Source: Utricularia gibba
Lineage: Eukaryota; Streptophyta; Magnoliopsida; Lamiales; Lentibulariaceae
Assembly (NCBI GenBank): GCA_002189035.1
Contig: NEEC01000014.1
Span: 2,296,501 to 2,360,500 of the forward strand
Direction: 5' to 3'
DNA: 64,000 nt
Within the stretch, counting starts at the first letter, position 1. Each line of letters starts with the position of its first letter. Shown here piece after piece: positions 17,051 to 43,397 of the stretch. The translations under genes and the position numbers were made by a program. Under the pieces are notes generated by a model. It saw nothing but the letters and a program-made list of their open reading frames with translations, was not told the DNA's origin and ran no database searches.

Positions 17051-18461
17051 ATGGAGCAGGGAACCTGGCCGAGGAAGTCAGACGGGGACACTTCAAATCT
17101 TTCCCTTTCGGCACGGCACCCGATGAATCGTCGACATTCATCAACCCTGCGAAAGCCCACTTCTCATTCTTCAAATCAACTCCCAAGCTGTCGTCTTCTT
17201 CATCCATGTCGCCAATTGCTGATTACTCGGGAACCCCGTATGACGTTCTCAGAAGAATTGCAGCTACCTTCACGCTGTCCAATTTGAGGGCGGCGTCGCT
17301 CGTTTGCAAAGCCTGGAGGGACGCCCTGAAGCCGCTGCGCGAGGCGATGCTGTTCTTGAAGTGGGGTAAGAGGTATAAGCATGGCCGCGGTGGAGTGAAA
17401 GCTGATTTGAACAAGGCTTTGGATTCTTTCTTGAAAGGGGCGGCACGTGGGTCTACTCTCGCCATGGTTGACGCCGGTTTGATATGCTGGGAGATGGGTA
17501 ATGAGGAGGAGGGAATTTCTTGGTATCGGAGAGCTGCCGATCTCGGTGACCCGCCGGCCAATGTAACTTGGCGATTGCTTACCTGCGAGGTAACCTCTTC
17601 GCTACACCTTACTTGAGATGTTTTGAAGTAATCCTTGAATTGTGACCTCACAGATGGAAAATGAAAGGGAGATTGCTATGTGTGAATTTCTACTTGGAAA
17701 AACATCCCGAAACGGGAATCAGTCATTAATGCGTTGTCTTCCAAGCTGCATGTAGGAATATGGATTGCGAATTATCTTTAGCAGATTGAGATGGACAATT
17801 CCTTTGTGCAGGTAGTCCTCCAAGAACTGAAGAGGCTATCCCATTATTGTATCATGCTTCATTTGGTGGTCATGTTCGGGCTCAATACCAACTTGCGCTT
17901 TGCTTGCATCAAGGCCGAGGAACGGCACAGTCCCTCCAAGAAGCGGCATGTCTATTTTTTTACACGCTTTTCGTACATGGTCTCGAGTGCAGAACAAATG
18001 TGTGATTTCCGGTGACAATTGTCTTTACTTTGTTCTTCAGGCTCGATGGTATCTCAGAGCTGCTGAAGGAGGATATGTGCGCGCTATGTACAACACATCT
18101 CTATGCTTTCTAACAGGGGAAGGTACGGTGCAGTGCCATAAAATGGCAAGAAAATGGATGAAGAAAGCAGCTGATCATGGGCACAGCAAAGCTCAATTCG
18201 AGCATGGCCTCAGCCTCTTCTCCGTACGTGTGTTTTTTATTTTTTTTAAACGCCTGATCATATTCTGTGTTTGAATATTGATTAAGTTATTCCTTGGGAC
18301 AGGAGGGAGATATGATGAAGGCTGTCGTGTACCTAGAGCTAGCCACCCGTGCCGGCGAACAAGCGGCGGGTCATGTGAAGAACGTCATTCTTCAGCAGCT
18401 CTCCGGGCCGTCTCGTGAGCGCGCTATGAACCTTGCGGATACGTGGCGTGCTAGCCACTGA
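17051..18461 (+). CDS. F-box protein with SEL1 (TPR-like) repeats, At1g70590 type, frame disturbed
   Basis: Probably an SCF ubiquitin-ligase adaptor. Exons: 17051-17589, 17812-17945, 18041-18223 and 18303-18461; about 338 aa once two missing bases are allowed for. The F-box is GTPYDVLRRIAATF...LVCKAWRDALK. SEL1 repeats follow, e.g. ALDSFLKGAARGSTLAMVD, HVRAQYQLALCLHQGRG, RWYLRAAEGGYVRAMYN and ADHGHSKAQFEHGL. Two apparent -1 frameshifts lie in exon 1. The N-terminal MEQGTWPRKSDG is out of frame with the F-box (likely at the G run 17084-17087), and the segment after GDPPA is out of frame at 17558-17559. Intron 2 seems to start GC (GCG|GCATGT). If the first shift is real, translation could start at the ATG at 17206, keeping the F-box. 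Whether it is a live gene is open. Confidence 0.8.
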
Positions 18462-18594
18462 TGCGGTGAATGTCAGCATTGCTGCAGCAGCTAGAGTAGG
18501 AAACGCTGTAACATACCTTGAGGGTATCAAATAATTGCACAGAATGTACCATTCCAGAAACCTTCTGAAGGAGTGGCCCTTTTCGATGTAGATT

Positions 18595-19028
18595 TCAGTG
18601 AAGATACAGTTCTTTAGGGGCTGATGGCTGATGCTGCAACATGTGGATGTGCAGCCAGTCTCTGATACAGACAGCTTTTTGGCTACCCTTCTGTTTAATC
18701 AGCTCCTTCAGCTCGGTATAATGTGTGACGAAAGCACGTTCCACTCTCTCGAGGGCATTCAGAACACCGGAATGCTCCAAATCCTCGCTTTTTCTGGCAC
18801 TGATTGCAAGATAGCTTACAAGTTTCAATCCCTGCAGCTGTGGGTTTTGGTTCATCTTCAGCAGTTTGATCAGAGGAGGAATATCTCCCCGTTCAATGGT
18901 CCACGCGCAAGTAGTTGTCCAGGCAAGCAAATTTAACGAGTGAAGCAGCAAGTTCTGTACCTACATCTACTTACGTACCTTTGATTCAGTTTCCCTCTGG
19001 GATAATGCTCACGCCAATGGTCCGATTG
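18595..19028 (-). pseudogene. Remnant of an armadillo-repeat protein gene, 5' truncated
   Basis: The minus strand encodes an open segment (18595-18954) reading LLLHSLNLLAWTTTCAW, then RGDIPPLIKLLKMNQNPQLQ and LKLVSYLAISARKSED, which has the look of ARM repeats. A possible preceding 50-nt exon (18979-19028), joined in phase across a GT-AG intron, would read IGPLA-stop-ALSQRE; the in-frame TGA is at 19009-19011. No earlier ARM exons are seen, because the 3' end of the TPR gene lies directly upstream. It is squeezed between the F-box gene and the TPR gene. I infer a decayed fragment; the ARM assignment itself is moderate. Confidence 0.45.
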
Positions 19029-19127
19029 CTTGTAAAAAGGGGAAAGACTATGTAATCAATAATATACATATGGTGTATGTATTATAGCTGAAGGTTACAC
19101 CACAGGAAGTTGGCTGCTTTTTTTTTT

Positions 19128-19140
19128 GGGGGGGGGGGGG
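19128..19140. repeat. Poly-G run (13) after a poly-T run
   Basis: Ten T residues (19118-19127) are followed by 13 G residues. It lies in the 3' flank of the TPR gene. It is probably a mutational hotspot and a place where read accuracy is poor. Confidence 0.8.
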
Positions 19141-19159
19141 AGGGGGATGTGGGAGTGGT

Positions 19160-20722
19160 TTATTTCTGGAGAAAGAGTGCAGCCCCAACGAGACCAATCC
19201 AAATGGTAACCGACACCCAAAAGGCACGATTCTTCTCGAGATCAGTGGGAGGTTTCCAGACCAAGAAGTCACCTAAATAGTCCTTCCTCGAGGGAAGCTG
19301 ATTTGTGGTCGAGCCAATGAATGCTTGTTCCTTGTCCTTGTCCTTGTACTTGTCACTCCATGTTGCTGCATAGCTAATCAGATTGACACAAGGAGGTGAG
19401 CAGATAAATACGAATAGAGATGAACTTGTCCCTGTTTCCTAAAAGCAGACAAAGAGCCATTGCAGACTTGAATTACCCTCCAAAGAGACAGAGATGAGAT
19501 CAAGCACACTTACTCTTAAGATCACATCACATAAGAATACTACGGTAAAATTACATTGAGTGTTCTGTCCGTTTATTTGCTGAAAATATGGATATTAAAC
19601 TCAAGGACTCACCTGTCGTAGCTGGAGCCTATGAGAGGAATGGTGACCATCTCTTCTTGGGTGATCTTGATCTTGGGGCTTGTAGTATGTATCGTAGATC
19701 TGCCGCCTGGCGACGGATAGTGACGCTGGGATGCTTCTTTTCCAGTTCTTGGTATAGTTTGATACAGTCAGCGTGGCGATTATTGGCCTCGTAGGCCATA
19801 GCAAGCCATATTTGTATCTGAAGGTAGATGAGCGCACATCAAATGAAGCAATATCCAGCAAGAACTATCGATAAGATGGAACAAATGCGGAGAGTGAGTG
19901 AACAAATTAAAGGACATATAAAGATAAAAACACCTAAGCGTGGAATAAGGCCTCCAGCAAATGCAGATAGGAAATAGTGCAAGTAGAGGGATATATGAAC
20001 ACCAACCTCACCACCAAATAGTGTGGGAGGAGGGATGATCGTCAGGGCAGCTTCAAGAAACTCAATTGCACGTCCATACATGCCTTTCTCGTAAGCTTTT
20101 TGCCCAACTTCAAACATTAATTGGGCCGTTTTCCTTCGTTCTGCTTGCTCCCTGGCCACCTATGGTGTCATTTTGAAAGAAGGATGGCGTAATCAGAAAC
20201 CCAGAGTCTTCAAATGATGCTAATACTGGAGCACACATACAGAAAAAAAAAAGAACGCACCTTTTCGAGTTCCTTCTTGACTCTCGTCCGCTTCTCCTCT
20301 TCAGTCTCTTCCTTGAGCTCGCCCTCCGCATTTCGGTATTCCTGATCAATTTTATATTGCAACTCCTCAGCTTTCTTCTCTAGCTCCCTCCTCTCTTCAA
20401 TCTCCTTCACTCGTCGCCTCATCTCCTCCTCCCAATCGAACGCATCTTCCTCCTCGAGCTCATCCTCAATCCCGTTATTGTCGTCGTCACTGGAAGTCTC
20501 GTAATCCACCCGATCCGCCTTCGATAGATTCGTTCTCCGCTTGTTCAAGTGCTTCTCTTTGTGATCGAAAACCGGCTCCAAGTGACCGTTATGGAGGCGA
20601 AGATTCTTCTTAAAGAGGCTTAAAACTACGTCGTACGGTAGGTGCCGGCTCTTCCGATCGGCGGCGAAGGATATTGCCGCAAGGTCCACTATCGGAGATA
20701 TGTTTCCGGCGACAGACGCCAT
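19160..20722 (-). CDS. TPR-domain protein with C-terminal membrane helix, function unknown
   Basis: Four exons (minus): 20261-20722, 20007-20159, 19613-19817 and 19160-19373. Allowing one missing base gives about 344 aa. The N-terminal third carries an acidic patch and a long charged coiled coil (EEEMRRRVKEIEERRELEKK). TPR-like helices follow: QKAYEKGMYGRAIEFLEAAL and IWLAMAYEANNRHADCIKLY. The C-terminus FWVSVTIWIGLVGAALFLQK is one clear membrane segment. Conserved plant proteins of this layout exist; the role is unknown and plastid location is only a guess. In exon 3 the frame must shift after LRYILQAP at the C run (plus-strand G run 19675-19678) to keep the conserved EEMVTIPLIG segment. The start is taken at the ATG at 20722; another in-frame ATG is at 20821. 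Confidence 0.78.
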
Positions 20723-20978
20723 CTCGACGGCGGCGTGGTGTTCCAAGCAAGCGTGAAATGCTTCGGACGGCAGGAGGTAGCGTAGATATTTTGGCAAAGA
20801 CAGGAAGTGGGACCAGATCATGAGTTCACAAGCCAACTATTGCACACCACGTGGACTTATGAAGTCGGGCCTTATCTTATGGGCCAAGATCGATGTTGGG
20901 CTTTCCTACAGAACTAGCTTCATTTTGGATCCAGGTTTTTCAAGTCCAGGTACCTCGGGCTCTCCGGCAGTTCGAGAA
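20723..20978. promoter_or_regulatory. Bidirectional promoter between TPR gene (-) and HisRS (+)
   Basis: About 256 bp separates the chosen start codons of two divergent genes. Open frames run through it on both strands but have no family character. Shared or overlapping promoters are inferred from spacing alone. Confidence 0.5.
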
Positions 20979-23900
20979 ATGGCGTCGGCGGCGGGGATGC
21001 GTGTGGTGACTGTAGGCGGGAAAGGCTCATCTCTTGCATCCTCCTCTGTTTTTGAGATCGCCAATGGGGTTGCTCGTGTTGCGATCGACGCTTCAGCTAT
21101 TTCCCGGCGTTCCTCCTCGTCGTCAGTTTCTGCGTCCAAGTTTCAGTTTTCAATTCCAACTTTCTTTACTCCAGAAGAATCCAGGGCTACTTTGGTTCTC
21201 CTGTTGAATAAGCTACTGGTGTCTTCTTCCTCTTCTTGTGTCACCCAGCTTCTGGAAATTCTGGACGGTGATGTTATTGCCTCAGGATACTCACTTGACG
21301 GCGTGGAATCAAGTGATTTGGGTGCGATCGATTACACATCTGCTGCAATTGATGGCGTCTCCGGAATCCTTGATCATTGCGTTGCTGGGTTGTCTTCAAC
21401 GGTGGACGCTGTCGCAGCTATGTCATGTGAGGCTTTGAGAGCCGACGCGTCGTCTTTCAATTTAATGGATTCTGGAGATGGTTCTTCAGCCAAGGATGTG
21501 GTTGCTGTTGCTGCAGATTTCAAAATATTCTTTAACGATTCAAAGATGGTTAAATCAGGCAGTGGACTTTCCGATCCTTCAGTCGCGGAGATTCCTTCTG
21601 TTCACGGATCTTTGAGGGAAATATCACGGTTGCTCCATTCCAAAACGAGGGTTCAGTTGAATTCTGGATTTAGAGATGGATCGGTCAAGGACATGTCCAG
21701 TGCATTGCTATCCCTTGCTCGGGCTTTGGCGAACTTGGGGGAGATAAGTATCCGGCGTACAATGCTACTACTTTCCAACTCATTTCCTGATGTGAAACTC
21801 CAGTCTCGTTTATCAGAAAGCTTAGTCGCCAAATGCCTTAACTACGATGAATTGGAAGGATTATGCGAGTCCGCTTATTCTTCTCTCGGAAAGAAGAATT
21901 ATCTCCTTTTCGTCCACAAAGTTTTTGATTTGCTTGAAGCTGTTAGGAGCATTATTTCCTGTGAGGCGATAACTGCCTTTCTTTCCCATGAAGGAAGTTC
22001 AGTGTTATCTGATAGCAGTTGCATTAGCAATGACATCACTGGTCAGTCTTCAGTTGATGAAACTTCTAACACTTCGAAGAAAAGTGACAAGAAAAAGAAG
22101 GGAGGTTTGGGGAAGGGTACTTCAGATTTTATGAAGTTTCTTAAGGAGACGCTACTTGGAGAAGCTACAAAAGTTAACTTGGAAAAACTAGTTGATGATT
22201 TCATATCATTGCTAAACCCAAGGTTCTTGGTGTTTAGCGATCTCTTATTGAAAGTTAAGAAGATCGTTGAAAGCAATGAAAGTCTAAAGCGACCTAAGCT
22301 CCCAAAGGTATGATGCTGCTATTTTTGTTTTTATTCAACATTGTTTGTAGATTGTCAATAGATTTTCCTGAATTTAAGCATTGAAGAAAACAGAGGTGTT
22401 TTCTTAGACGGATGGTGATTGGATTGGAAGGCGTTTTCGATGTAGTCGCTTCCTCACTATTTTTCGTTTAATCTTGTTTCTTTTGTTCGAGAAAATTAGA
22501 ATGGCATTCCAGAGTGTTCATAAAAAGATTGTGAAAATTAATGAACGAAAAACTAAAACTTGGGAGGCTGATGAGAAGTTATCTGAAGTCAAAGTGTAGA
22601 AGGCAGTTTTTCTTTAATTGTTTCAGCTTTCCTTAATTGGTTTCACTTCTTAAAAGTTAATCTGGGTGTCCATATTTATCAAGTTTCTCGATTTTCTTCC
22701 CACCATTGAATGTTTCATTGGCTGACTTTGTTTTCTTTATGCTCGCACAGGGAACTCGAGATTTTTCAAAAGAGCAGATGGCTGTTAGAGAGAAAGCATT
22801 TTCAATAATAGTTGATGTTTTCAAAAGGCATGGTGCGATGTCCTTAGACACCCCTGTCTTTGAACTGAGAGAAACTCTCATGGGCAAGTATGGGGAAGAT
22901 GCTAAGTTGATTTATGATATTGCTGACCAGGTATGCTCTTTGTCCGTGGGTATCTTTATTATTTTACGTTTCCAATAATGTATCTAATATTAGAATATGG
23001 ACGTGAACCGTTAAGTTCACATATTTAACTCCAGTGGATTGACAATTGGCATATATATTTTTTTTTCTCAGGGAGGAGAACTTCTCTCCCTTCGTTATGA
23101 TTTGACTGTTCCTTTTGCTCGATATGTTGCTATGAACGGTTTGACCTCATTCAAAAGGTACCAAATTGGGAAAGTGTACCGAAGGGACAATCCATCCAAG
23201 GGGCGATACCGGGAGTTCTATCAGTGTGATCTTGACATTGCAGGTCAATTTGAAAAAATGGGACCAGACTTTGAAGTTATCAGAATCTTGACTGAGTTGC
23301 TCGATGAATTGGATATTGGGGATTATGAGGTTAGCGCCCCTCATGATTTAATTGATTGTATTTACTTTCTCGACTTTAATGAAAGTGTCTTATTTCTTTA
23401 GGTCAAGTTAAATCATCGAAAGTTACTCGATGGTATGCTAGCTATATGTGGGGTGCCTGCAGAAAAGTTCAGGACCATCTGTTCGAGCATCGATAAGCTA
23501 GACAAACAAACATTTGAACAAGTCAAAAAAGAAATGGTGAGTAAGGTGCACTTGTTCAGGAAACTTTGTACGGTACATGAATGTGAGTTCTTTTATAGGT
23601 ACAAGAAAAAGGCTTAGCTGAGGAAGTTGCTGAAAAAATTGGCACTTTCGTTAAACTCAGAGGTTCTCCTTTGGAGTTGCTGTCCAAGCTAAAGGAAGAA
23701 GGTAGCGAGTTCCTGACTAACAGTGACTCGGAGCTTGCACTGTCCGAATTGGATATTTTATTCAAGGCCCTGGCGAGGTCCAAGTGTATCAACAAAGTGG
23801 TTTTCGACCTTAGTCTTGCTAGGGGTCTCGATTATTATACTGGAATGATATTTGAAGCTGTCTTCAAAGGCACTACTCAGGTACTGCCCCGAATTCTGAC

Positions 23901-24547
23901 ATCTCATTTTTGTTAAACTCGTGGTACTCAATTGTGTGAATCGCAATCTCTTGGGAAAGGCATTTAGATGGGCGTTGTGATATGTAGGTGGGTTCAATTG
24001 CATCCGGTGGACGCTACGACAATCTGATTGGGAGTTTAGGCACCAAACATGTTCCAGCCGTCGGAATCAGCTTAGGAATAGAGCGAGTCTTCGCTATAAT
24101 GGAGGACATTCAGAAGGATCGAAATCAGGTATGCCATGCTCAGTCACCCTTCTGCTTTAATCTAAAGGATTGTTTTCTCAACATCTGTCTTGACATGTAA
24201 TCATCCCAACGTGAAAATTTGTTTGCTTTTTTAATTATCAGGACATCCGAGCCACTGAAACTCAAATTCTGGTGAGCATCCTAGGAGATGATCTATCTCT
24301 AGCAGCTGAGATCACCTCTGAACTGTGGAGCAACAAGTTCAAAGCCGAGTTCATGGTCAACAAGCGGATGGCGAAGCACTTCGACCGCGCCACGGGATCA
24401 AAGATTCCATACATGGCCATCGTCGGGGACCATGAACTCAGCAAAGGAACAGTGAAACTGAAAAATGTCAAGGCTGGGACTGAGGAAGAAGTCCCACTCG
24501 ACGCACTTGTGCCGGAGCTTCAAAGACGCTTAGAGAAGCAGCCCTGA
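20979..24547 (+). CDS. HisRS: Histidyl-tRNA synthetase, cytosolic plant type
   Basis: It charges tRNA-His. Seven exons: 20979-22307, 22751-22930, 23072-23329, 23402-23536, 23599-23880, 23988-24128 and 24242-24547. All are GT-AG and in phase, giving 876 aa. The first exon encodes a plant-type N-terminal extension of 443 residues, ending in a Lys-rich linker before the catalytic core at [17 protein letters not shown]. Core motifs: [14 protein letters not shown], the motif 2 region [45 protein letters not shown] and motif 3 [12 protein letters not shown]. The anticodon-binding domain is in the last exon. The start is the ATG at 20979 ([10 protein letters not shown]); upstream codons stay open without a better ATG. 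It appears intact. Confidence 0.97.
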
Positions 24548-24982
24548 AACCACACCCCTGCAACTTATGATTGCCAAGATTTGATTTTTGGTAGACAGAA
24601 GAGAAATATATAAGAGGATTTTGGTGTATTATTCCATTTGAATTGACTTTCTTGAATCTGGAATGTGTTGGGTTCGGGTCCAGGTTGGTACGTTGCGAAA
24701 TACCCAAACTACCCCCGTTGCTCGTATAATCCCATCCCATCTGCTCGGAATTAATATATGTTAGTTGTTATGGGTCGTCAACCTTCATCCATCCCCCGGG
24801 ATTCTCCAAGACTCCAACTTTACGTCGAAGTTTCTGATTTCCTATCTGGGAAGCGCTTCTCTCCCTTGAAGGCCTTTTCAGGATCTTAAATTTCAGGGTT
24901 CCGTTGATAATCTTAACGAGGTTCCGTTTTCGTGTGATATGTTATGTGCTGGTTGTCGAGATTGTGCAATAGGGTGCGCGAA
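24548..24982. other. HisRS 3' flank and GT17 promoter
   Basis: Spacer between two same-strand genes. It should hold the HisRS 3' UTR (AT-rich to about 24650) and the GT17 promoter and leader. No gene is seen. Confidence 0.5.
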
Positions 24983-26310
24983 ATGGCTGAGAATGGGTCT
25001 CGTTATTGTTCGAAGAAGATGGACGATGAATGTAGTGAGGTTGTTTCTTGTTCGTTTGACGCCTTGCCTCTGTCCTTATCGTAAATTGTGTCGAATTTGA
25101 TGTTTAAACCAGTTCCCCTGGAATCAAATTGGAATATTGTTGTGCTTTTTATTTGCTGTTGTTGTTTTCGTCTGGTGTGAAGGTTTTTGTTTTGTGTTGT
25201 GCGAATGTGCAGGAATCTGGGCGGATTTTGAGCATGACGAGATTGAGATGTATTTTCCGTGGACTGGACATAAAAGCTTTGCTTTTTCTGACTGTCCTCG
25301 TCCCAACATTTGTGCTTATTGTCCACATCCATGGACAAAAGATAACCTACTTCTTGAGGCCTCTGTGGGAATCCCCACCCAAGCCCTTCACAGAACTACC
25401 ACATTACTACCATGAGAATGCTACTGTCGAGAATTTATGCAAACTTCATGGCTGGCGGACGCGGGACTATCCTCGCCGTGTCTTCGATGCAGTGCTGTTC
25501 AGCAATGAGGTCGACATCCTCAAGATTCGATGGAAGGAGCTGCATCCCTATGTCTCAGAGTTTGTTCTCCTTGAATCAAACTCCACTTTCACAGGCTTAA
25601 GTAAACCCTTCGTCTTCTCGAGTATCCGGGATCAGTTCGGTTTCATGGAGGCACGGCTTACTTACGGACAGATACAGGGGAGGTTCAAGAAAGGGGAAAA
25701 TCCCTTTGTCGAGGAGGCATACCAGAGGCTTGCATTGGACTTCCTTCTGAGAAAGGCTGGAATTGAGGATGATGACCTGCTGATAATGTCTGATGTTGAT
25801 GAGATTCCGAGCCGGCATACGATCAACCTTCTGAGATGGTGCGATGGGATTCCACCCATTCTGCATCTTCAGCTGCGGAACTATCTGTACTCATTCGAGT
25901 TTTTTCAGGACAACAAGAGCTGGAGAGCTTCAGTTCATGTGTATCAATCAGGGAAGACGAGATATGCACATTACAGACAGTCTGATGTGAGATTGGCCGA
26001 TTCCGGGTGGCACTGCAGCTTTTGCTTCAGACATATCGATGACTTCATCTTCAAGATGAACGCCTACAGCCATGTTGATCGTGTGAGGTTTTCTCACTTC
26101 TTGAATCCCAAGAGGATCCAACGAGTAATATGCGACGGTGCGGATCTGTTCGACATGCTGCCTGAGGAGTACAGTTTCAGGGAGATCATCGGAAAGCTCG
26201 GCCCTATCCCTCGATCCTACTCCGCTGTTCATCTCCCTGCATATATCATGGAGGAGCACGATCACTACAAGTTTCTGCTACCTGGAAATTGCATCAGAGA
26301 AGGCGGATGA
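24983..26310 (+). CDS. Glycosyltransferase family 17 (beta-1,4-GlcNAc transferase-like)
   Basis: Two exons, 24983-25039 and 25213-26310, give 384 aa. The short first exon encodes the cytosolic tail [20 protein letters not shown] signal anchor ([18 protein letters not shown]) follows, as in Golgi type II enzymes. The lumenal domain has GT17 features: [35 protein letters not shown], the acidic [11 protein letters not shown] (DxD-like) and [18 protein letters not shown]. Mammalian GT17 is the bisecting GlcNAc transferase MGAT3; the substrate of plant members is not established. The frame of exon 2 is also open upstream of its acceptor, so an alternative start inside the intron cannot be excluded. 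It appears intact. Confidence 0.93.
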
Positions 26311-27266
26311 GCTCCACTGGTGCAAGATGCAAAGTCCCTAGTTAGTAATTTACGAGACTAACACTGTGGAGATTAGAAGTGACCGCATTTCTAACAGGTT
26401 GAAGATGGTGAATGGTAAGGGCTGATTTCATAGCAGAGTTTCCAGTTCCAATATTCCATGATACTCTAGATTTTGCTTCTCTTCTTCATTTTTGGCATTG
26501 GATCCAATATTCTATAACATGTTCAACGTTTAACACAATATGTTTCACCGTAATGAAAAAAGGTGGATGGTTTCTCTGTAGTTTTGATAGACATAAGGAT
26601 TCAATGTGGTTCCAAGAAGAAGAAACCAGTTTGGACAGTGAACAATGGAAAAGGACAAACATCCCAGAACACAAAAAAGGTAGAATCCAAGCAAAATTCT
26701 ACTGAGTGCTGATGTGACTCGAGTTCAGGTCACTCTTTTACAGCAGAGGAAGAAGACGACCAACTAGCAGACATGCAGTGAGAAAAAGAAGGTTCTATGA
26801 TGCTCACCAGCTATAACTTCCATTACCCACTGAAAGTAGGCCTACCCTGCAATGATGCAAAGCTTGCAGCACAGTCGATTCCCCAGGCAAAATCAATGTA
26901 ACTTTGAGGCTGGAATGAAAAGACAAAAAAGAAGCAGGAACCATGTATGGGAGGTGCTTGCTCCCCACCTTCCAAGTAAGAGATTCGATAAGTATGAGAC
27001 TCGTTGGATCAGGACACGTCGAACCGAGTGTCCGTTTCCCGACACGCTCAATGAAACAGTATCCGCCGGAGTTGCAACTCATTCCATATTTAATTACTAT
27101 AAAAAAAATAAGAGTGGTTGGGCCCCACTCTGATCAGATATAGAAACACGTCTATTTACGGTAACAGCGAAAAAAGGGGGCCTAATCACACACTAATTAC
27201 TTAATTAGTAATCATCGATATCCCCCCAAACTCCACACGTCTGACGTCATCAGCGGGGGTCAAACT
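26311..27266. other. Spacer between convergent GT17 and WD40 genes
   Basis: The 3' flanks of two convergent genes. Low-quality ORFs only; nothing else recognised. Confidence 0.5.
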
Positions 27267-28498
27267 CTACAGGGCGATCCGCCAAACCTTGATCTCACCG
27301 TCGAGGCTCCCACTCATCACTCTCACATCGCTATCTCCGCCGCCGTATTCCGCCGCTAGGGACCTCACCGGCGACCGAAGCCCATCCAGCACTGATAAGG
27401 AAGTGTAGCTCCCGTCGACGCGCCTCCGCCAAATCCTCACCGTGCGATCGGCCGAACCGCTGAACAGCAAGTCGTCGAGGTTGATCAAGCAGAGTATTGC
27501 TTTGGAGTGTCCTCTGAGTGTCCCACGCGCCGCCATGTGATCATTGCAGTTTTGTCTTTCCCACACGAGAATGGATCTGTCGCAGGATCCGGAGAAGAGA
27601 ACCGATCCGCTGGGGTTTAGGGCTAAGGCATTTACGGCGGATTTGTGTTTCTGCAGAGTTGAAATCAGGGCATATTTTTTCCCAACTTTCTTCCACACTT
27701 TGATTGTCCGATCGGCGGAGCCGGTGTAAATGAATCCGTCCATAGAAACCGCCACCGCGTTAATGGCGTCGTCATGGGCTCTGTTGATTGATTGGAGGCA
27801 GTTATTTCTCCGGCCTCCCCAGACTTTGATGCTTCGATCCCATGAAATGGATACAATCGAATCGTCGAAGTCAGAGGCAGCGAGTCCCGAAACGGTGTCG
27901 TAATGCTCTACGGTGAGTTTCTTTCTGTGGCGGCGGATGGTGACGTAGTTTCCCGGGAGAACGGCTCTGCAGAGACGATCGGAAACCGTTGGAAGGGACG
28001 CAATTTGTTTGTGCTGTTTCTGATCATTCACAATCCACACTCTGATTCTGCAATCCTGATGGGCGGTGTAGATTTTTCCAGAAAGAAACGCTATCGATTT
28101 CACCGCTCCGGAGGAGGCCTTCTCGATGCAGAAACTGTCGACGAGGGAGTTTTCCATCCAATCGTAGACGTCGATTTCGTTTCCCACGGCCGCGTACAGT
28201 AGATCATTGTGCACCGCGAGGAAACTAACGGCAGCGGCGCGGCCGCGGTGCAAGATAGTAGAGCTCACGGCGGTGCAACCTGAATAGTCGGAGAGTGCGA
28301 GCTTATCGAGGGAGGGCAGAGTTTCAAGGGAGATGGTGCTCTGTATGCTGCCGCTGATGCTGCTGCTGCTTTCCGAGGATGAGAGTTGGGAGTCGGACAA
28401 TGCGTCGTCGGAGGGGATCCCGGGCCAAGGGAATAAGGAGGCCGCAGAAACGGGTCGCCGGTATTCGCGACGGTCAGCAACCAAGATTCTAGCTCCAT
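27267..28498 (-). CDS. WD40-repeat protein, JINGUBANG-like, start region frame disturbed
   Basis: An intronless WD40 propeller of about 410 aa. Blades are seen as AVKSIAFLSGKIYTAHQDCR, DSIVSISWDRSIKVW, AINAVAVSMDGFIYTGSADR, AVNALALNPSGSVLFSGSCD, LINLDDLLFSGSADRTVRIW and VMSGSLDGEIKVW. This resembles the plant JINGUBANG group (one member is a negative regulator of pollen germination). The long frame begins without an ATG: its first codon after the upstream stop region is not a start, and the first in-frame Met is deep in the propeller. The nearest ATG, at 28498 (MELESWLLTV), is one frame off, so one base is probably missing between about 28400 and 28498. The coordinates assume that start. Confidence 0.8.
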
Positions 28499-29718
28499 CG
28501 GCTTCGTTGGTTCGCGTCGAGGAAAATGAGGTGGGAATACAAGACAGAGGGAGGGGGGATATTTATGTTTGAAAAGCCAGATACCGAAGACTCGGAACAT
28601 ATCTTTTCTACACATGTCGTCCATGGGCAATAGTGGAATTTCAAATGACTACCAAAAGGAAAAAAAAAAAAAAAAAAACTTTATTCCAAGTTTATAATAA
28701 AATAAAAATTTAACCTTCTATAGTTTATTAATAATGAGAAAAAACTTTTAAATTTCAATTCTTTTTTAAAAATATCATTTAAATTGTACGGAATAAATTC
28801 TAAATCTTGGTAATATCCTCAAAACCAACCAATAAAACCACAGGTACCCGCCCCGGTCAACGTGCCCGGGATGCTTATTCGGGTCAACTATGAGTACGGA
28901 TCCATGGGTCAGCAGATATGAGGCAAAAAATCTTACCCCCAGGCGATGATATTTCTGACATTTGTGGCCATAATTGACTCATCTTTTACTTTTTTCCTTT
29001 CTTTTTTTTTAAAAAAAATAATATATCCACACCGAACGATCCTAAAGGCAGTGAGTGATTGGTGTGGATGCCATTGTGTATTCTATTTGTGTGGATGGTG
29101 GCAACTGCCCCCGCCCATAGATATTCATGGCTAACAAGATACTAGGTTCCCTTTCCGGGTCGACCCGACCCGATCCAACCCCCTTATTATTGGATACTTT
29201 TTCAAAGTCAGACCTGCAGTTGATGATCCATGTGAATGAGGTTTGCGCCGCCAAGTCTACAGATCAGCCTCCTGGACTGCATTACGTCCGTAGGAAAGTT
29301 GCTGAAGGGAGGGGTTTGAAGAAGCTGCGTTTTTAAGGCCGGTGGTCGTTCCACGGCGGCGATAATGAGGAATTCAACCAGTTTGGTGATCACAACGAAA
29401 CCGTAACAGCTTGTCATGGAGAAGACCAGCAGAAATATACTTGCAGTTTGAGCCTTTCCAATAACTTAGGGATAGAATCAAATCACAAGTTTCCGTGCGT
29501 TGCAGTTCATGGCCGGAGGTAATGCAGCTAGCAGGCAACTGATAAAGATGGCCTATCGACCAAAACCAACCGCAAGATGCAATAAAAGAAGAGGTTTTCA
29601 GACCGTGATGGTCGATGGATTGCATAATCTACTTTCAAACTTAGAGACAGAGCCTTATTACAAACATGCGCAGATAGATTCCATTATGTACATGACAAAA
29701 CCGAGCAGAGGGAACACA
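28499..29718. other. Spacer upstream of the WD40 gene
   Basis: It contains the WD40 promoter, a 19-base poly-A run (28660-28678) and AT-rich sequence to about 29040. Short ORFs at 29127-29625 have no recognised content; one minus-strand frame near 29300-29400 has a hydrophobic stretch but no other support. Confidence 0.45.
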
Positions 29719-32843: not shown

Positions 32844-33240
32844 GGAGAAGGCAGGATCTCAGAAACCCACAAGCTCACTCTCTGTAAATACCTTGTCCAA
32901 AAGTAGCAAGCAGAAGTCTATTTTCTTTATAGTAGAGTAGGATTTAGGAGACCTCAATCATTGGAAAATGTTATTGAGTTGTTTTTTGATAAAGTTTGGA
33001 TTTTTAGCAAATCTTATTTAAATCTCATTTCATATAAGTTAAGAATTAGATCTAAAAACAGGTAATGAATGAAATGAAAAGCCATTACAAAATCATGCAG
33101 AAGTTGCTCCTTTTGAATCAGTCACTGTTTCCTCCTTAAGCTTCGCCCTCGCAGTCGAATGGTTTCATTCTATTTAAGATGAGTGCTAGTTGAAAGGGGC
33201 CTGTGTGTTTCTTGTTTGCTTCCATTGCATCTCACTCAAA
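32844..33240. other. Spacer between tandem LHT copies
   Basis: The 3' flank of copy 1 and the promoter of copy 2, about 400 bp. It is not obviously similar to the region upstream of copy 1. Confidence 0.5.
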
Positions 33241-35121
33241 ATGGTGGAAAGTGAATTCGACAAGGAGAAAAACCAGAATTCGAAATCGCATGACGACTGG
33301 TTCACCATCACCGCATCCAGAACAGCCACTTGGTACTCCTCGACTTTCCATAATGTCACCGCAATGGTAGGCGCTGGTGTTCTCAGCCTCCCCTATGCGA
33401 TGTCCCACATGGGATGGTAACATAATCCTCTTCTCTCTTCCCTGTAAATTAGTGAAAATTTCTACGAGATTCCAGATGTAAGCTTTATGGCATGAAGCCC
33501 TGATAAGGGCCACGATATTCACTACACTCATGGAGTCTATTCGCTGATGCTGATGTGCAATCCCTTATCCTCATTTCCAGGGGGCCGGGAATAACTCTGA
33601 TGGTGTTATCATGAATCATCACTCTGTACACTCTTTGGCAGATGGTGGAGATGCACGAGATGGTTCCGGGGAAGAGATTCGATCGTTATCACGAACTGGG
33701 GCAGTATGCATTCGGGAAAAGCTCGGGCTTTACATCGTTGTTCCTCAGCAAATTGTGGTTGAAGTTAGTACTTGCATTATTTACATGGTCACCGGAGGCA
33801 AATCGCTGCAGAAATTTGCGCTGAGTGTGTCACCAGAGCACAAGCCTATTAAGCTCACCATTTGCATCTTCATTTTTGCTCTCGTCCACTTCTTTCTGTC
33901 ACATCTCCCCAGTTTCGACTCCATCAGCAGCGTCTCTCTCGCCGCCGCGGTTATGTCTCTGGTGTAAGTAGCCTTTGAAGCATTATTACAATGTGATTCG
34001 CACCTGTGCCATGCTTATGTCTCTTGCATGATTGCTTGATGCCTGTGCAGATATTCCACGATTGCTTGGACAGCCTCACTGGCAAAAGGGCGAATTCAGA
34101 ACGTGGCGTATACGTTAACGGGAGCGAGCGACGCGGCCAGAGTCTTCAACTTTTTGAATGCGTTGGGAGACATTGCTTTTGCTTATGCAGGACACAATGT
34201 TGTGTTAGAGATTCAGGCGACAATCCCTTCAACCCCAGAGAAACCCTCCAAGAAGCCAATGTGGAAAGGAGTTGTATTGGCTTATCTCGTCGTCGCTCTG
34301 TGCTACTTTCCGGTGGCCTTCATCGGGTACTACACCTTCGGAAACGCCGTGGACGACAACATCCTCCTGACGCTTGAGAAGCCCCGGTGGCTCATCGCGG
34401 CTGCCAACATGTTCGTCTTGATTCATGTCATCGGTGGCTATCAGGTCCCCAACCCATCGCAGCCTAAAACTGAATTTGGTCGACTCTTACATCGGAGTGT
34501 TTGTTTTCAGATCTATGCAATGCCTGTTTTCGACATGATCGAGACCCTTCTCGTCAAGAAGCTTAAGTTTCAGCCGTCGTCGTTCCTCCGCCTCACCGTT
34601 CGTAGCTTATACGTCGGTAAGTAGTCTGTTCCCATATGAAAAATTCAAGCTTTTGTTTGAGAAAAATGTTTCCTATCCCCACACTTCGGCGATGTGCGTC
34701 TATGGCAGCCGTAACGATGTTCATCGGCATGACATTCCCGTTCTTCGGCGGCTTAGTCGGATTCTTCGGAGGATTAGCATTGGCCCCAACTACATACTAC
34801 GTAAGTAGAGCAGCAAAAGCTTCCCAGTTCTTACCAGTTTAAGTACATCACGTTATTCATTGATTCACAGCTTCCATGCATCATCTGGCTAATAGTGAAG
34901 AAGCCTAAAAGATTCAGCTTCTCCTGGTTCATCAACTGGGTATCTATCTCCTCCCTCAAAACTCCTTTTAATCAATGCTCCAAAGTATAATTTCCAACCG
35001 GAACCTTTGATTTTGCGCTCAGGTCTTCATAGTTGTGGGTGTGATATTGATGTGCCTTGCACCGATCGGGGGTATGAGGAATATCATAGTGTCTGCCAAG
35101 TCCTACAAGTTTTATCAGTGA
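33241..35121 (+). pseudogene. Second LHT copy with nonsense codon and frameshift
   Basis: Exons match copy 1 one for one: 33241-33416, 33581-33963, 34051-34444, 34511-34616, 34709-34800, 34871-34939 and 35023-35121. Splice sites and phases are kept. Two lesions are in exon 2. A Trp codon (TGG in copy 1) is TGA at 33612-33614. A G is missing in the run at 33714-33716, making exon 2 383 nt against 384 in copy 1. Exons 3-7 are otherwise open and encode a normal LHT C-terminal half. The protein would stop early in exon 2. It is either a young pseudogene or a gene with two consensus errors; the nonsense change is a substitution, which favours real decay. Confidence 0.75.
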
Positions 35122-35579
35122 GGAGAAGGCAAGATATCAGTATACACAAGTTGCAGGGCTCCTTTGTTCAAGCCCGCTCTCTGTAAATGTGTGTCCAAGA
35201 GTTGGCAGAAGACATGGTGTCATCGAGCAGGATCAGTGCCATATGCACCATGTGTTCATGTTACAGAAAAGGCTACATAAATCTTCACAGTGGACTCTTA
35301 TACAGACTAATGGACAGCATATAGGATAGAAATCACGATAATAACGTCAACAATTACAAGCAAGGATGAGTATTCCAGAAGGATGTTTTCAGAAATGCCT
35401 GTATAGTTTATTTCTTGGGGAACGATTGCATGCGTTTCCCTACAACCCACAGAGCCGAAATCATATGACAAGGTATGAATAGCATGAAACGGTGGTGCCA
35501 TGCTAGTAAAAGAGAAGCATATTCAGCACGAGATTGGCGAAAGAAAAAACGACTTTGGAAGGTCACCTTTACAAAATGA
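35122..35579. other. Spacer between convergent LHT copy 2 and NDUFV1
   Basis: The 3' flanks of two convergent genes. No ORF of interest. Confidence 0.5.
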
Positions 35580-37477
35580 TCAAGCAGCAGCAACCTGCTG
35601 TAATTCTAGGTCCGCATGCTCTCTGATCCTTCGTTCGAGCTCAGGTCGAAAGTGTCGGATTAGACCCTGAACAGGCCAAGCAGCAGCGTCGCCCAACGCA
35701 CATATTGTGTGACCTTCGATCTGTTTTGTCAACTCCTGAAGCATATCAATCTCCTCGAGTTTAGCATTTCCAACTTTCATTCTTTCCATGATCATCCAAA
35801 GCCATCCAGTGCCTTCCCTACAAGGAGTACACTGTCCACAACTCTCATGTTTATAGAAGTAAGAAAGCCTTGCAATTGCATCAACGATATCAGTGGATTT
35901 ATCCATCACAATAACAGCGGCAGTTCCTAGTCCTGATTGAACAGCCTTAAGAGCATCATAATCCATGAGCACATCCTCACATACATCTTTGGGAATCAAG
36001 GGAACAGATGAGCCACCGGGTATAACGGCAAGTAAGTTATCCCACCCCCCACGAACACCACCACAGTGCCTCTCTATCAGTTCCTTGAATGGTATGCTCA
36101 TCTCCTCTTCAACGGTGCATGGCTTGTTTACATGGCCAGAGATACAAAACAATTTAGTGCCAGAATTATTCTTCCTTCCAAAACTCGCAAACCATTCTGG
36201 TCCACGCCTTAGTATGGTGGGCGAAACAGCTACTGTTTCGACATTGGTAACTGTTGTCGGGCAGCCATACAGCCCTGCATTGGCTGGAAATGGAGGCTTC
36301 AACCTAGGTTTTCCTTGCTTGCCCTCAAGGCTTTCCAGAAGAGCTGTCTCTTCACCACATATGTAGGCCCCGGCACCATAGTGGATATGGACATCAAAAT
36401 CATACCCCGAGCCACATGCATTCTTTCCCAGTAATCCGGCCTCGTAAGCTTCTCTCCTGGCCTTCTCCAAGTTCCTTCTTTCATTGACATACTCACCACG
36501 AATATAAATATAGGCAGCAGTTGCCCTCATCCCCACACCAGCTATTAAGCATCCTTCCAGCAATTTATGTGGGTCATGGCGCATAATCTCTCTATCCTTA
36601 CACGTTCCTGGCTCACTTTCATCGGCATTAACAACAAGGTAAGAAGGACGGCCATCAGATGTCTTTGGCATAAAAGACCATTTAAGACCAGAAGGAAAAC
36701 CAGCACCACCACGGCCTCTAAGACCAGATTTCTTGATCTCATTGACAATCCAATCTGTTCCCTTCAGCACAAGGTCTTTTGTCCTATACCAATCCCCACG
36801 TTTCATAGCACCCTTCAGAAAGGGTCATGTAGCCCATAAAGATTTGTAAAAATGCGATCTTCATCTCTCAGGCCCCCGAAATGAGTCTTCTCCGGAGGCG
36901 GAGGAGGTGGTGGAGGTTGCTGAGCTGCAGTTGCAGAGTTCGTTGCAGCATCAGCACTCAAAAATCTTGTTGATAGGGACCAACTCTGACGTGAAAGCCG
37001 AGCCAGAGCACTCCCATGCGGAGAAAAAATAGATTTTATAGGAGCCTAAAAAAATTCACAAGCTTAGTCACCACTTTTCACACAAATGACATGGTGCAAG
37101 GCAGCAGCACAATACTGAACCTCAACTACTCCAAAACATTCTATCTTTAAACTCTTGCAAAAAAATCCCAATTTTGCAAAAAAGTTCAAGACAAACAAGC
37201 AACAATTATTTGGTAAGATACATTTTTCAAATTCCGTAGTCACAATCATGGCCATCAACGAGAAATTCCCCAAAAGGGTTCGAACACAATTCGATGAAAA
37301 GAAAAAAAAAAAGAGTAATCCATACATTAAATCCCTATGCACGAAACAAGAAAATATAAATGGGTAGGAGTAGTTTCAGGGTCTAAGACAATATGCATAA
37401 ATCTCAAGATCCAAACAGAAAAACGAGATCAATTATACGTTCCATTTTGTTGAAAAACGAGGAGTGAGGCATACCAT
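35580..37477 (-). CDS. NDUFV1: NADH:ubiquinone oxidoreductase 51-kDa subunit (NDUFV1), mitochondrial
   Basis: The complex I subunit that binds NADH and FMN and carries an iron-sulfur cluster. Exon 1 contributes only the start codon (37475-37477, ATG|GTATGC). Exon 2, 37045-35580, carries everything else without introns; about 489 aa. The N-terminal [20 protein letters not shown] is a mitochondrial presequence, followed by a proline run and [15 protein letters not shown]. Motifs: [18 protein letters not shown] (FMN/NADH), [39 protein letters not shown], and the cluster ligands [14 protein letters not shown] plus [10 protein letters not shown]. One base appears missing at 36817/36818, after LHDPF, before [10 protein letters not shown]. 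An essential, normally single-copy type of gene is unlikely to be dead, so a consensus error is favoured. Confidence 0.95.
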
Positions 37478-38172
37478 GAAGCATGAATGTCTTTCCCTGA
37501 GTACGAGCTCAAGATGCGCGTCCCTGCAGCTTATCACAGCAGTCCTCTGGAGAGCATCGAGCCACGAACAGCAGTCATCCGGCGCACAGCGGTCGTCGTG
37601 GGCGCACAAGAAGATAACCGTCGGATTCAACTCTACGTAAATCGAGATCCGTTGGATTGAAAAACCGGAATGCCTGAAGAATTCACGCAACGTGGAGCAT
37701 CAACTCAACGCAATTGTCTTGTCTTTACGGAGGCCGGTCCGGGCCGCTAATGGAATGAATGGGCCAAAGCCCAATACATCCAAATTGAGATCACCTTATT
37801 ATTGCATTCCCAAAATAACCCTTGCCGTACGTTCGCTGTACAAAAGCTGTTCTTCCCTTTCCCTTGCACAGTTGTATCAGAGGAGCGATGCTATGCTGGG
37901 GTCTGCCTTTCACACCTCCAAACAGTAGCTAGGTTACGACATTAAAAAATATATAAAAGAATGCGCATTCATGTCTATGAAGCGGGATCTCCAGAATCAA
38001 TGGTAGGTCCACGGCAAAAAGGCTCCTTTCGGTTCCCCGACTTCATTTCATTCGACTGTAGCATCGCCATCTTCGCATTTCTTCCAAGATCTGCTATTTT
38101 CTTCAAGACCCATTTCCCCGAATTCCCACATTCAAGAATCATTCCGTTCCTTGGATTTGTATTCCAAAATCG
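37478..38172. promoter_or_regulatory. Divergent upstream region of NDUFV1 (-) and GT47 (+)
   Basis: About 700 bp between two divergent starts. The NDUFV1 leader is within about 37478-37720. Promoter content is inferred from position only. Confidence 0.45.
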
Positions 38173-39940
38173 ATGAAAACACCTCTTATTTGCCTCGGAA
38201 TATGCATTCCCCTGTTATTGGGAACAGTAATGATAGCCGGAACCCTAGACTACAAGTCCCAGTTGGCCTCGTTTCTCCAGTTCAGAGATGCCGCGTTGCC
38301 CTGTACAGAGGCACCTTCCCCTCTACGCGTCTACATGTACGATTTGCCGGGCCGATTCAACATCGGGTTGATGGACTCGGGTTCGGTGCCAATGAGACTG
38401 TTACGGCTGCTAATTTCCCAACGTGGAGATGGCACACTGGGCTATGGAGACAACACAGCGTCGAGTACTGGATGATGGCTTCGCTGATTTATGGGGGAAA
38501 CGATCGAGTTGCTGTCCGGGTTACGGATCCGGGTTCCGCCGATGTGTTTTTTGTGCCGTTTTTCTCGTCAGCCAGTTTCGACCTCCATGTGAAGAATATG
38601 AGAGAGGTGAATTCCATTGATGAGAAGTTGCAGGTGCGTTATACGTTTTTAAACTAATCAATCCTCTGGTATTTGCATGTGCATTCTCCCCAGACTAGCA
38701 ATTTGAGCTTTTTCTGAGCATAAAGAGAGAAATATTTGAGCAGAGGAGAGGAGGCTGACTGTTTTGTGGGGTTTTTGCTACCTGAAAGTTTGAAAATAAA
38801 GAAGGTTTAAGCAACACAAACAGTAGATCAGTGAATCAAATTTGTGTCTTGCTGTAAAACGCATTCAATGTTTCCTAGCCTAAGGGCCCTTCTTTTATGG
38901 CCTGCATTACATTCCATCTACAGAGTGACTTGCCATTTGTAGGTTATGTGCTTCTTACAGGACATTGCTGTCATGGCAGGCTGAGATTGTCAACTTCCTG
39001 AGGGCATCAGAACATTGGCAAAGATCCGGTGGACGAGACCATGTGATTCCTGTGCATCATCCTAATGCATTCAGACATCATCGGGGCTCGGTCAACACAT
39101 CCATATTCATTGTGTCTGATTTCGCTCGGATAATGTCAATCGCCAGGCTCACCAAGGATGTTGTCGCCCCTTATCCTCACATGGTGGAATCTTACTTGAA
39201 CGATGATGGGATCAACGATCCCTACCACTTCCGCAGAACGCTTCTCTTCTTCCGCGGTGGGACGAAGCGGAAAGCAGTATGATGATCACTGAACCCACAT
39301 GGATTGGCTCATGCTCTCCCGAACTTGCCCTGATCTTTCTTCACTTGTTCAGGAAGGGAAAATCAGAGGCAAACTGCGCAAGATTCTTAATGGAATAGAG
39401 GATGTCGTGTACGATGAGGCGCATGCATCCCAGGAAGGCTTCAGAGCTGTAAGCCTCCCTTCTCAGAACCGTTTTCATTCAGAACCCTTTGCCAGCTATT
39501 GTTAATCCGACTCTTCTCACCAGTCAACTGAACAAATGCGTTCATCGAAGTTCTGCCTCCACCCTGCTGGTGACACCCCGTCCTCTTGCCGCCTTTTCGA
39601 TGCGATTGTGAGCCACTGTGTACCAGTGATCGTCAGCAACAGGATCGAGCTCCCTTACGAGAGTGAGCTGGATTACAAGGAGTTCTCCATCTTCTTCTCC
39701 GATGATGAGGCCCTGACGCCAGGCTACATGGTGAACAAGCTGAGGGAGGTGCCCAAGGAGAAGTGGACGAGCATGTGGTTTGAGCTTAAAAGCATTGCTC
39801 ATCATTTCGAATTTCAGTATCCTCTGAAGAAGGACGATGCAGTTGACATGATCTGGAAGCAAGTCCGGCAGAGGGTCCCCGCTGTAAAGCTGGCTGTTCA
39901 CCGGAGTCGGAGGCTGAAGATACCCGATTGGTGGAGATGA
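38173..39940 (+). CDS. GT47 exostosin-family glycosyltransferase (ARAD-like)
   Basis: A Golgi type II enzyme probably acting on cell-wall polysaccharide. Exons: 38173-38633, 38980-39276, 39353-39448 and 39524-39940; 423 aa once one missing base is allowed. A signal anchor ([19 protein letters not shown]) is followed by [17 protein letters not shown]. Later family blocks: [77 protein letters not shown], and [20 protein letters not shown] with [21 protein letters not shown] -1 frameshift lies at the G run 38379-38381, between GLMDSG and [11 protein letters not shown]. It is similar to arabinosyltransferase-like ARAD proteins, but the subclade is not proven. Convergent with the DUF579 gene, 107 bp apart. 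Confidence 0.88.
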
Positions 39941-40047
39941 CTGGTTCGGTTCCATGGGGGGAGGGGAGGGAGGATACCAACTACTTGCACCGTGAAGCCC
40001 TGGCAATACACACCATCAATAAACGGCAATGATGTCGATGTTCTGAA

Positions 40048-41086
40048 TCAAGTGGTTGCTTTGAGAAAGGAAAATTGTTTATTTATAGACTGTGAAGTGT
40101 CTGAAGAATCATATAAGGAAAGTAATATGGTTTCCGGGAAGTTGCGCTGCCGTGAAATTACCCTAGCAAAAATAGACGGTCTTATCTGTGGCCGGGGGAT
40201 CTCGAAATGCCACAGTTTCCCAGCCCCATTCACCAGATACTTGCGGCACAAGAATCTCTCAGCGTACGTTTTCTCCACTTTCCTCTCCACATCATGAAGG
40301 AAAACGTGCGTGTTCCCAGGTTTCGTCCGGTTCCTCGCCATCACCGCCGCCGAGTATATGGCCGCCATTCTCCCCGGCGCCTTCGCGTAGTACCCCCGCG
40401 GCGCGTCGATCATTATCAGATCCCACTCCGTGTCGTAAACTCGATTCGAGAGCATGTTCAGCGCCAATCTGCAATTTGGATCCCGATTCAAAATTCGCGA
40501 CTCATCGTGGATTTCGACTTTCTTTATCAAGTTTACCTGCATTTGTCGTTGCCGCGGAGGAACGCGTTCGCCGGCCAGCACTGCGATTCGGTCTCGTAAT
40601 GCCGCAGGAGCTCGTCCGCCTCGGAGAGGTGTGTCCGATACGGCACCGTTTCAGCTCTCAACATCGGCGCGTTCTTCAACACGCTCGCCACCCATTTCGG
40701 ATCCTCCTCTAGGAAAAGCGTGTTCCCACCCGGGTTCAACCCGGCCCACATCAGCGAATCGTAACCCAGACCGAAAACGAGAAAATCGCACGGCGCCTGT
40801 TTCTTCAACACCTCCAAAGACACGGTAATCTCGCCCAACGTCTGCTGCGGCACCACCGTCGAAGTCGCGTAGTGGACGAGGGCATCCATCGCGACCACCG
40901 TGGTCCCCCACCGGAACCATTGCTCTCCCACGCGCCACCCCCAAAACACGAGATCGCCGTCCGGTATGGGGTTAGCAGGAAAGCATACACCGCCGCCGTG
41001 ACTCCGATGACGCCCAGGAAGAGATAGAGTCCCCATAGCTTCTCCGGTTTGGCCCAATTCCCCATTTTCTCTCTGATTTTCGTCAT
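40048..41086 (-). CDS. GXM: Glucuronoxylan 4-O-methyltransferase-like (DUF579)
   Basis: GXM enzymes methylate glucuronic acid side chains of xylan in the Golgi. Two exons: 40537-41086 and 40048-40468; about 323 aa after allowing one missing base. The N-terminal GLYLFLGVIGVTAAVYAFLL is a signal anchor. The DUF579 core contains HYATSTVVPQQTLGEI, APCDFLVFGLGYDSLMWAGL, GGNTLFLEEDPKWV, TVPYRTHLSEADELL, EWDLIMIDAPRGYYAKAPGR and HVFLHDVERKVEKTYAERFL. The anchor and the core are in different frames; the switch must lie between about 40870 and 40995, and the G run (plus-strand C run 40938-40942) is a likely place. IRX15-type proteins are the main alternative. Confidence 0.87.
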
Positions 41087-41600
41087 GGTTGGATTAAATA
41101 AACTGAAAGGCGAACTCAAGGAAGCTGATCTAGAAGAAAAAAAACTCAGATCCAGAGAAAAAAATGATCACAAACCGTGTGTTTTGTTTTCTTATAGATT
41201 TTTTCTCCAACTACAATCTGTCAGGATTGGACATGTCGACGGCCATGAATTATTACGATTAATTTTAATTACAAAAAAAACCGCAAGGGAAGCCGGTAAG
41301 GGTGGCTGTTAGTGTGAACATTGGAAATTACTTTATAATATTTAAACTGATTTTCTGTATATAATATTCATAATTAACGAGAGTCCAATTTTGTGGGCCC
41401 CTACCGATCCTCTTATCGAAGTAGTTTATCATTTTCGTTTGCATTTTTTAATTGTAAAAGTTTTATTTTGAAAATTGAGAAAAAGGAAAAGCGTATGAGC
41501 GTTTGGGGCACGCGACCGTTTCGAGCTTTGACGAATTTACCCCCAGCGGGTATATGATGCCCGTGAAGAGTTTCTAGGAATTACTCGGCGACTGGCGGCG
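41087..41600. promoter_or_regulatory. Divergent upstream region of GXM (-) and NTF2 (+)
   Basis: About 510 bp between two divergent starts, AT-rich at 41320-41480. Promoters are inferred from position. Confidence 0.45.
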
Positions 41601-42476
41601 ATGGATCCTGATGCGGTGGCGAAGGCGTTCGTCGACCACTACTATTCTACTTTCGATACCAACCGTAGCGGCCTCGCGGGATTATATCAAGACTCGTCAA
41701 TGCTTAGTTTCGAGGGTCAGAAAATCCAGGGCGCACAGAACATTGCAGCGAAACTCAACGGCTTGCCGTTTCAACAGTGCCAGCATCAGATCACCACCGT
41801 CGATTGCCAGCCATCTGGACTCGCTGGTGGAATGCTCGTCTTTGTTTCTGGGAATCTTAAGCTTTTGGGGGAACAGCACGCCCTCAAGTTTAGCCAGGCA
41901 CGTTGCTCTTGCTCTGCAGATCCGTGCTTTCGTGGATTTATACTAGATTCACTGTGCATCCGATACTACACTGTGAATTTTAGGTTTTCTGGTATTTGAA
42001 TTGCATTTTTTGAAGCTTTTGCACGAAAATTTGAGATGACTGGTTTTCTTTTTATTTTGTGAACTTGACCATAGGCCAGTCCCATGTTAACCTTCCAAAT
42101 TGATTCTAGAGTTCTTCCTTTTGCGAAATGCAAGCTTTCGTTTCAAATTTGGCTTCATGTTGAATTATTTTACAGACCAGTTGGAGTTTCGTCTCCATGT
42201 TTTGTGTATGCAGTTTGAGGCATGCTGTGCATTTTTAATTGCAATGTAGTAAAGAGAAGTTCATTTGACAACGACAAGAGATTTGCGCTTCCCTGTTATC
42301 TGTACAGAGGAGATTCAGGAAATGAAACTCATGTGCCAAGTTGTTGCTTTCTTGATTGATATACTGCTCATTGATGATTTTACATTGGGTCACTTTTGCA
42401 GATGTTCCATCTAATCCCTACTCCTCAGGGAAGCTTTTATGTCTTGAATGACATCTTCAGGCTGAACTATGCCTAA
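41601..42476 (+). CDS. NTF2: Nuclear transport factor 2 (NTF2)
   Basis: It imports RanGDP into the nucleus. Two exons, 41601-41897 and 42402-42476, give exactly 123 aa, the usual length. Exon 1 has AKAFVDHYYSTFDTNRSGLA, LYQDSSMLSFEGQKIQGAQN and LVFVSGNLKLLGE; exon 2 has MFHLIPTPQGSFYVLNDIFR and ends LNYA. The intron begins GC (AGCCAG|GCACGT) and ends TTTTGCAG; no GT donor gives the right phase to the conserved MFHL segment. It appears intact. Confidence 0.95.
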
Positions 42477-42865
42477 GATTTTCCAAATTCAACAACCCCC
42501 ACCTGCCTGCGCGCAGCCACTTGGGAATCTTCTATCCTCATGGCCTTGAACCCGTATCTTATCATGTGTTTTTTTTTTCTTCTTCTTCTTCAGTGGTGAA
42601 CTCATGTCTTCCTCTCTATGGTCTCTTTCTGATTTGATGAATTTGTTAGCCTTCTTGGTGCATGCCTCCATTCGCAGCCAGTTGCTTTGGTGTATGAACT
42701 CCAGAACAGCAGATTTTGTTGTCCTGTTTGCACTATATGTCTGCTTTTCGGTTTTACTTGTAACTGACTAATGTAGTCTTAGTAGTTTTTGGGGTTATGC
42801 GGTCTCCTTGGTGCAACTTGAATTTCATTACATGTTTTGCTCGCTGCAATACAGTTACAACTTGT
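42477..42865. other. Spacer between convergent NTF2 and membrane-protein genes
   Basis: The 3' UTRs of two convergent genes; CT-rich near 42570-42600. No gene is seen. Confidence 0.45.
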
Positions 42866-43397
42866 CTAACTCAGCTCACCCTCCTCGGCGATTGCACCGG
42901 CGGTACCTGGCAATCCCAATCGTGGCAGGTGAGAAATTTTGACTCCCGGGAAAGATGGTGGGACGAAATTCTCCGCAGCGTCGTTGATCCGTTCTGCTAC
43001 CGGAGTTGTTCTCCTCCGCAAGAGTCTTCCGATGATTCCGGTGAGGGATTTCAGGGGTTCCTTAAAACGTGTTTCAGACTCAGAATTAGCGACACTTCGG
43101 AAACTTGCCACGCCAATGTGACCGCGATCGTCGACGCAAGGAGGCAGTGAGTAATCAAGTTCTGCCGATGTATCTTCTTCAGCTCCCTTTTTATTTCTTC
43201 CATGGCGTTGCCCGGCTGCTGCTATCAAGTATCATCCAATCGTAGTGATCCCCATTTGGCACTAAATGAGTAGCATTAGATAGAATGCGTACCTCCGGCG
43301 CTGTTTCCGACGCTGAGAGATGATCCGATGAGGAGGCGGCGGCGATTTTTTCATCGGTGAGACTTCTGTGACTCATGCCCTTGCTGTCTACCTCCAT
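42866..43397 (-). CDS. Conserved plant membrane protein of unknown function, frame disturbed
   Basis: Two exons (minus): 43293-43397, encoding MEVDSKGMSHRSLTDEKI, and about 43215/43221-42866. The acceptor sits in repeated CAG triplets, so its exact base is uncertain. Exon 2 begins with the amphipathic MEEIKRELKKIHRQNLITHC, then the hydrophobic LLASTIAVTLAWQVSEVSLI, which fits a family of small plant membrane proteins I recall without a function. After LKHVLRNP the frame must shift by one missing base (plus-strand G run 43054-43057) to continue LKSLTGIIGRLLRRR and ENFVPPSFPGVKISHLPRLG. About 151 aa. The plus-strand ORF over the same bases looks like a shadow. Confidence 0.55.

Follow-up and report, generated by a model that had tools for sequence, protein, structure and literature searches.

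The frameshifts that interrupt otherwise good genes in this region of the Utricularia gibba genome are, with a probability we put at about 0.96, consensus errors of a self-polished long-read assembly, and the real genes are intact, with LHT copy 2 as a possible exception. That they are an artefact of consensus calling, of a known kind, and no biological feature is strongly supported. The region, called the window below, is the whole 64,000-nucleotide stretch of DNA that was analysed (contig C98, positions 2296501-2360500), and the plant assembly in which it lies comprises 100.09 Mb in 516 contigs.

One-base losses in the window

A collinear duplicate of the window genes is located on contig C409 (approximately 1429906-1453245), where SEL1, TPR, WD40, NDUFV1, and DUF579 keep their order and an HD-Zip gene comes next. 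We used these duplicates as same-genome references, together with a paralogue on C328 for GT47 and the tandem neighbour LHT copy 1 for LHT copy 2. For NDUFV1, plant complex I structures supplied solved relatives as extra references. Sites were mapped by protein-to-DNA alignment in which one-base steps were permitted (Table 1).

Table 1. Frameshift sites and one nonsense codon in window genes (window coordinates).
Feature	Position	Strand	Detail
F-box/SEL1, first exon	17051-17588	+	Two -1 sites: GGGG 17084-17087 and CCC 17550-17552
TPR gene, last part	19675-19678	-	G run (C run on the coding strand) one base short, by comparison with the C409 copy
WD40, near N-terminus	28407-28420	-	-1 site; best run GGGG 28413-28416
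LHT copy 2, nonsense codon	33612-33614	+	TGG of LHT copy 1 is an in-frame TGA here; second lesion, no indel
LHT copy 2, GGG run	33714-33716	+	One base less than LHT copy 1; 435 codons, one -1 step
NDUFV1 (complex I 51 kDa)	36816-36824	-	-1 site; alignment with one -1 step; base present in C409 duplicate
GT47, GGG run	38379-38381	+	-1 site; 156 codons against C328 paralogue, one -1 step
DUF579 (IRX15/GXM), C5 run	40905-40909	-	-1 site; 170 codons against intact C409 duplicate, one -1 step
Small membrane protein, GGGG run	43054-43057	-	Presumed -1 site; open frames on either side

In the frameshift-aware alignments, WD40, DUF579, GT47, NDUFV1, and LHT copy 2 each need a single -1 step, the first exon of SEL1 needs two, and no gene needs a +1 step. 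The first-pass annotation had listed nine -1 losses. Seven of these (two in SEL1 and one each in WD40, LHT copy 2, NDUFV1, GT47, and DUF579) are confirmed against same-genome duplicates or solved relatives, two of them with shifted coordinates, the TPR loss is well supported, and the membrane-protein loss is plausible. Over 178 codons the SEL1 exon shares 85% identity with its intact C409 duplicate and differs from it by exactly two -1 steps, one at the annotated G run and the other, placed at 17558-17559 before, better assigned to the CCC run. The one-base loss in DUF579 (Pfam match PF21729, E 9e-30) is likewise confirmed but does not lie at 40938-40942, the correct place being the C run in Table 1. 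WD40 aligned to its intact C409 duplicate over 400 codons with a single step, which falls inside the range 28400-28498 given earlier and has a placement uncertain by about 8 bases. The losses in LHT copy 2 and GT47 map exactly where they had been annotated. The naming of NDUFV1 as a complex I subunit with a -1 site also holds, as the sequence on either side of the site matches the plant complex I 51 kDa subunit, but in frames that differ.

In the TPR gene, one lost base at the annotated run predicts a frame in which the C409 copy shows the continuing motif QAPKINVTQEEM; this C409 copy is itself degenerate. A -1 site in the small membrane protein is plausible; a Pfam search gave no match for this protein and a genome search gave no paralogue. 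The start of the HD-Zip gene, suggested before as a tenth site, is unsupported: the gene has an intact homeodomain, and the region upstream is not conserved between copies.

Spectrum and spread of the losses

Across all loci we mapped 22 events, leaving out two GRAS steps in the diverged locus L069, and every one was a -1 step (22/22; two-sided sign test, 5e-7). A G/C run of at least three bases was touched by 20 of the 22 events, compared with 25% of nearby positions (p = 1.6e-10), and a run of at least four by 11 of the 22, compared with 9%. A/T runs near the 22 events showed no excess. The earlier description of the losses as unidirectional and mostly at short G or C runs is thus borne out, while its term homopolymer under-calling holds for G/C runs but not for all homopolymers.

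Run-length counts from this assembly alone show a drop in G/C runs past length 7 that fits under-calling. In the whole genome, exact G/C runs of length 6, 7, and 8 number 14854, 2706, and 214 (step ratios 0.18 and 0.08), and exact A/T runs occur 64327 times at length 7 and 27400 times at length 8 (ratio 0.43). Counts from the analysed loci alone (33 G/C runs of six and one of seven) overstated the drop and were superseded by these figures.

For NDUFV1, a protein search found only two copies in the genome, on C98 and on C409. The window copy is short of one base near 36820; the C409 copy has that base and loses another about 770 bases off, a loss that was absent from the first-pass annotation. 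The two copies have diverged to dS 0.52 with a dN/dS of 0.021, which is equal before and after the window site. Both copies are hit, at different places, and under this dN/dS they cannot both be long dead. Given such strong constraint, error is a much likelier cause than two independent and very recent deletions at G/C runs. Taken at face value, the frameshifts in both nuclear copies would amount to a very recent, mistletoe-like loss of mitochondrial complex I, which we regard as exceedingly improbable.

Some loci were assembled twice, and there the copies can be compared directly. Over 8 kb, the small contig C5 duplicates a stretch of C412 without any substitution; the two differ by 3 one-base losses in C/G runs, all on C5. 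Another part of C412 is repeated on C316, the pair differing by several losses and 1 substitution over 4.1 kb, and the end of C414 is repeated on C422, with differences that consist of gaps only. One-base losses thus make up nearly all the differences between such copies, and allelic variation would bring substitutions. These comparisons serve in place of the independent assembly suggested in the first-pass annotation, although the small contigs may be low-coverage ends. At 38-60 kb, C5, C316, and C422 duplicate parts of C412, C412, and C414 at 99-100% identity (locus pairs L021/L020, L082/L083, L047/L048, and L056/L070), so the assembly contains redundant copies.

We used GRAS genes as a genome-wide yardstick because they are mostly intronless. 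In about 25 of them a single frame holds the full-length domain, and more than 10 are split across abutting frames. Alignment of the split genes to intact relatives places -1 steps at G/C runs in at least ten other contigs, among them C1, C2, C142, C213, C244, C255, C328, C375, and C480. With at least 12 losses over some 43 kb of GRAS domains, the rate is put conservatively at 0.28 per kb. The window, with 8-9 losses in about 12-14 kb of coding sequence, is marginally above this rate (P 0.02-0.05), an excess to be expected of a window chosen afterwards for its losses.

The GRAS losses in L061-L064 and L072 nearly coincide, in a conserved Gly/Pro-rich stretch that is encoded by five to seven G or C. 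Recurrent error at such conserved G/C runs could mimic a shared mutation. The KCS family (PF08392) was tried as a second intronless yardstick and discarded, as most of its splits are introns and a clear -1 step was seen only in L075; steps adjoining long gaps in L071, L073, and L076-L080 were set aside as introns, and L070 was left out because it is a copy at a contig end with several bases different from C422.

Errors, decay, or slippage

Systematic under-calling of runs, the simplest reading in the first-pass annotation, agrees with the genome-wide losses, the hits in both NDUFV1 copies, the twice-assembled loci, and the depletion of long G/C runs. Under the proposed mechanism, an assembly polished with its own reads would yield a consensus in which a minority of G/C runs is one base too short. 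The technical cause would probably be PacBio CLR reads processed by HGAP/Quiver without short-read correction. The alternative named alongside it was a decaying chromosome copy, in which the window would be a duplicate segment that is being fractionated following whole-genome duplication, with the frameshifts as real pseudogene lesions. The collinear block on C409 fits such a history, as do the intact C409 copies of SEL1 exon 1, WD40, and DUF579 exon 1 and the nonsense codon in LHT copy 2. At the same time, the C409 copy of NDUFV1 has its own loss and that of TPR is degraded. The TPR copy illustrates that true decay leaves mixed lesions: it has many gaps and stops, with 126 of 852 alignment columns being gaps (L031-L032, C409:1435013-1436407). 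Each affected window gene instead has just one or two one-base losses, and the only other lesion is the LHT copy 2 TGA. The dN/dS is low across the sites (NDUFV1 0.02, SEL1 0.18, WD40 0.25, DUF579 0.36, GT47 0.17), and one-base losses also occur on other contigs and in the C409 NDUFV1. Lesion types, selection, and spread all disagree with decay, and we reject it as the general cause, considering it very unlikely for the window. Still harder to credit is that programmed frameshifting or transcript slippage allows real frameshifts to be tolerated. The sites are indeed G or C runs, and G/C runs can promote slippage in some systems, but there is no conserved slippery motif or position, and duplicates have different sites or none. 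Contigs that carry the same locus twice also disagree at runs without substitutions, unlike a real genomic feature.

LHT copy 2 calls for separate treatment, as the only gene in the window with a plausible real lesion. The one-base losses could all be errors while this gene is a genuine recent pseudogene through its in-frame TGA, which the earlier list of lesions did not include. We lean modestly towards this mixed case. In its favour, LHT copy 2 has TGA for TGG, and substitution errors are scarce in the twice-assembled contigs. On the other hand, the two LHT copies differ by dN 0.030 and dS 0.313, and their dN/dS of about 0.1 means that any loss of LHT copy 2 must be recent; the TGA might also be one substitution error.

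Relation to known assembly errors

Consensus error of the kind we favour resembles what is known of self-polished long-read assemblies (PacBio CLR with HGAP/Quiver, and nanopore drafts), which show one-base indels with very few substitutions, mostly homopolymers called too short, and false pseudogenes from fragmented genes (PMC5873921, PMC12007338). False pseudogenes from homopolymer deletions are known in long-read drafts (PMC12007338); A/T runs dominated in that nanopore example, unlike the G/C runs here. For a Capsella BAC, comparison of replicate HGAP/Quiver assemblies over 157 kb gave 9 indels and no SNPs, and the indels were not homopolymer-specific (PMC5873921). Deep HGAP/Quiver BAC assemblies carry approximately 2-6e-5 indels per base, roughly five- to fifteen-fold below the rate seen here (PMC5873921). 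The losses in U. gibba thus differ from the Capsella study in their higher rate, in being losses only, and in being strongly confined to G/C runs. Pseudogenes left by fractionation following a whole-genome duplication offer the other comparison: a duplicate block is present here too and the C409 TPR is truly degraded, but the lesion spectrum, the selection signal, and the genome-wide spread are different.

Counts of lost genes and pseudogenes drawn from this assembly, along with its gene models and frameshift calls, will be inflated unless G/C runs are checked against accurate reads. At about 0.3 losses per coding kb (a lower estimate), a sizeable share of ordinary genes would look broken. The biology of the plant is unaffected by these losses, with LHT copy 2 possibly excepted. 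Our literature search found no description of this error for U. gibba. A review describes the U. gibba PacBio assembly as built with HGAP at 88-fold coverage, with a contig N50 of 3.4 Mb and 581 contigs (PMC5793159), and the last step of the HGAP pipeline is Quiver polishing (PMC5793159). The assembly analysed here is very probably the reviewed one, from which it differs in contig count (516 vs 581), so that some contigs would have been dropped or cut. Five of its contigs, C1, C2, C409, C505, and C507, have 8500000, 6192500, 2492500, 3452500, and 642500 bases, all multiples of 2500, and these round sizes look like cuts at round positions.
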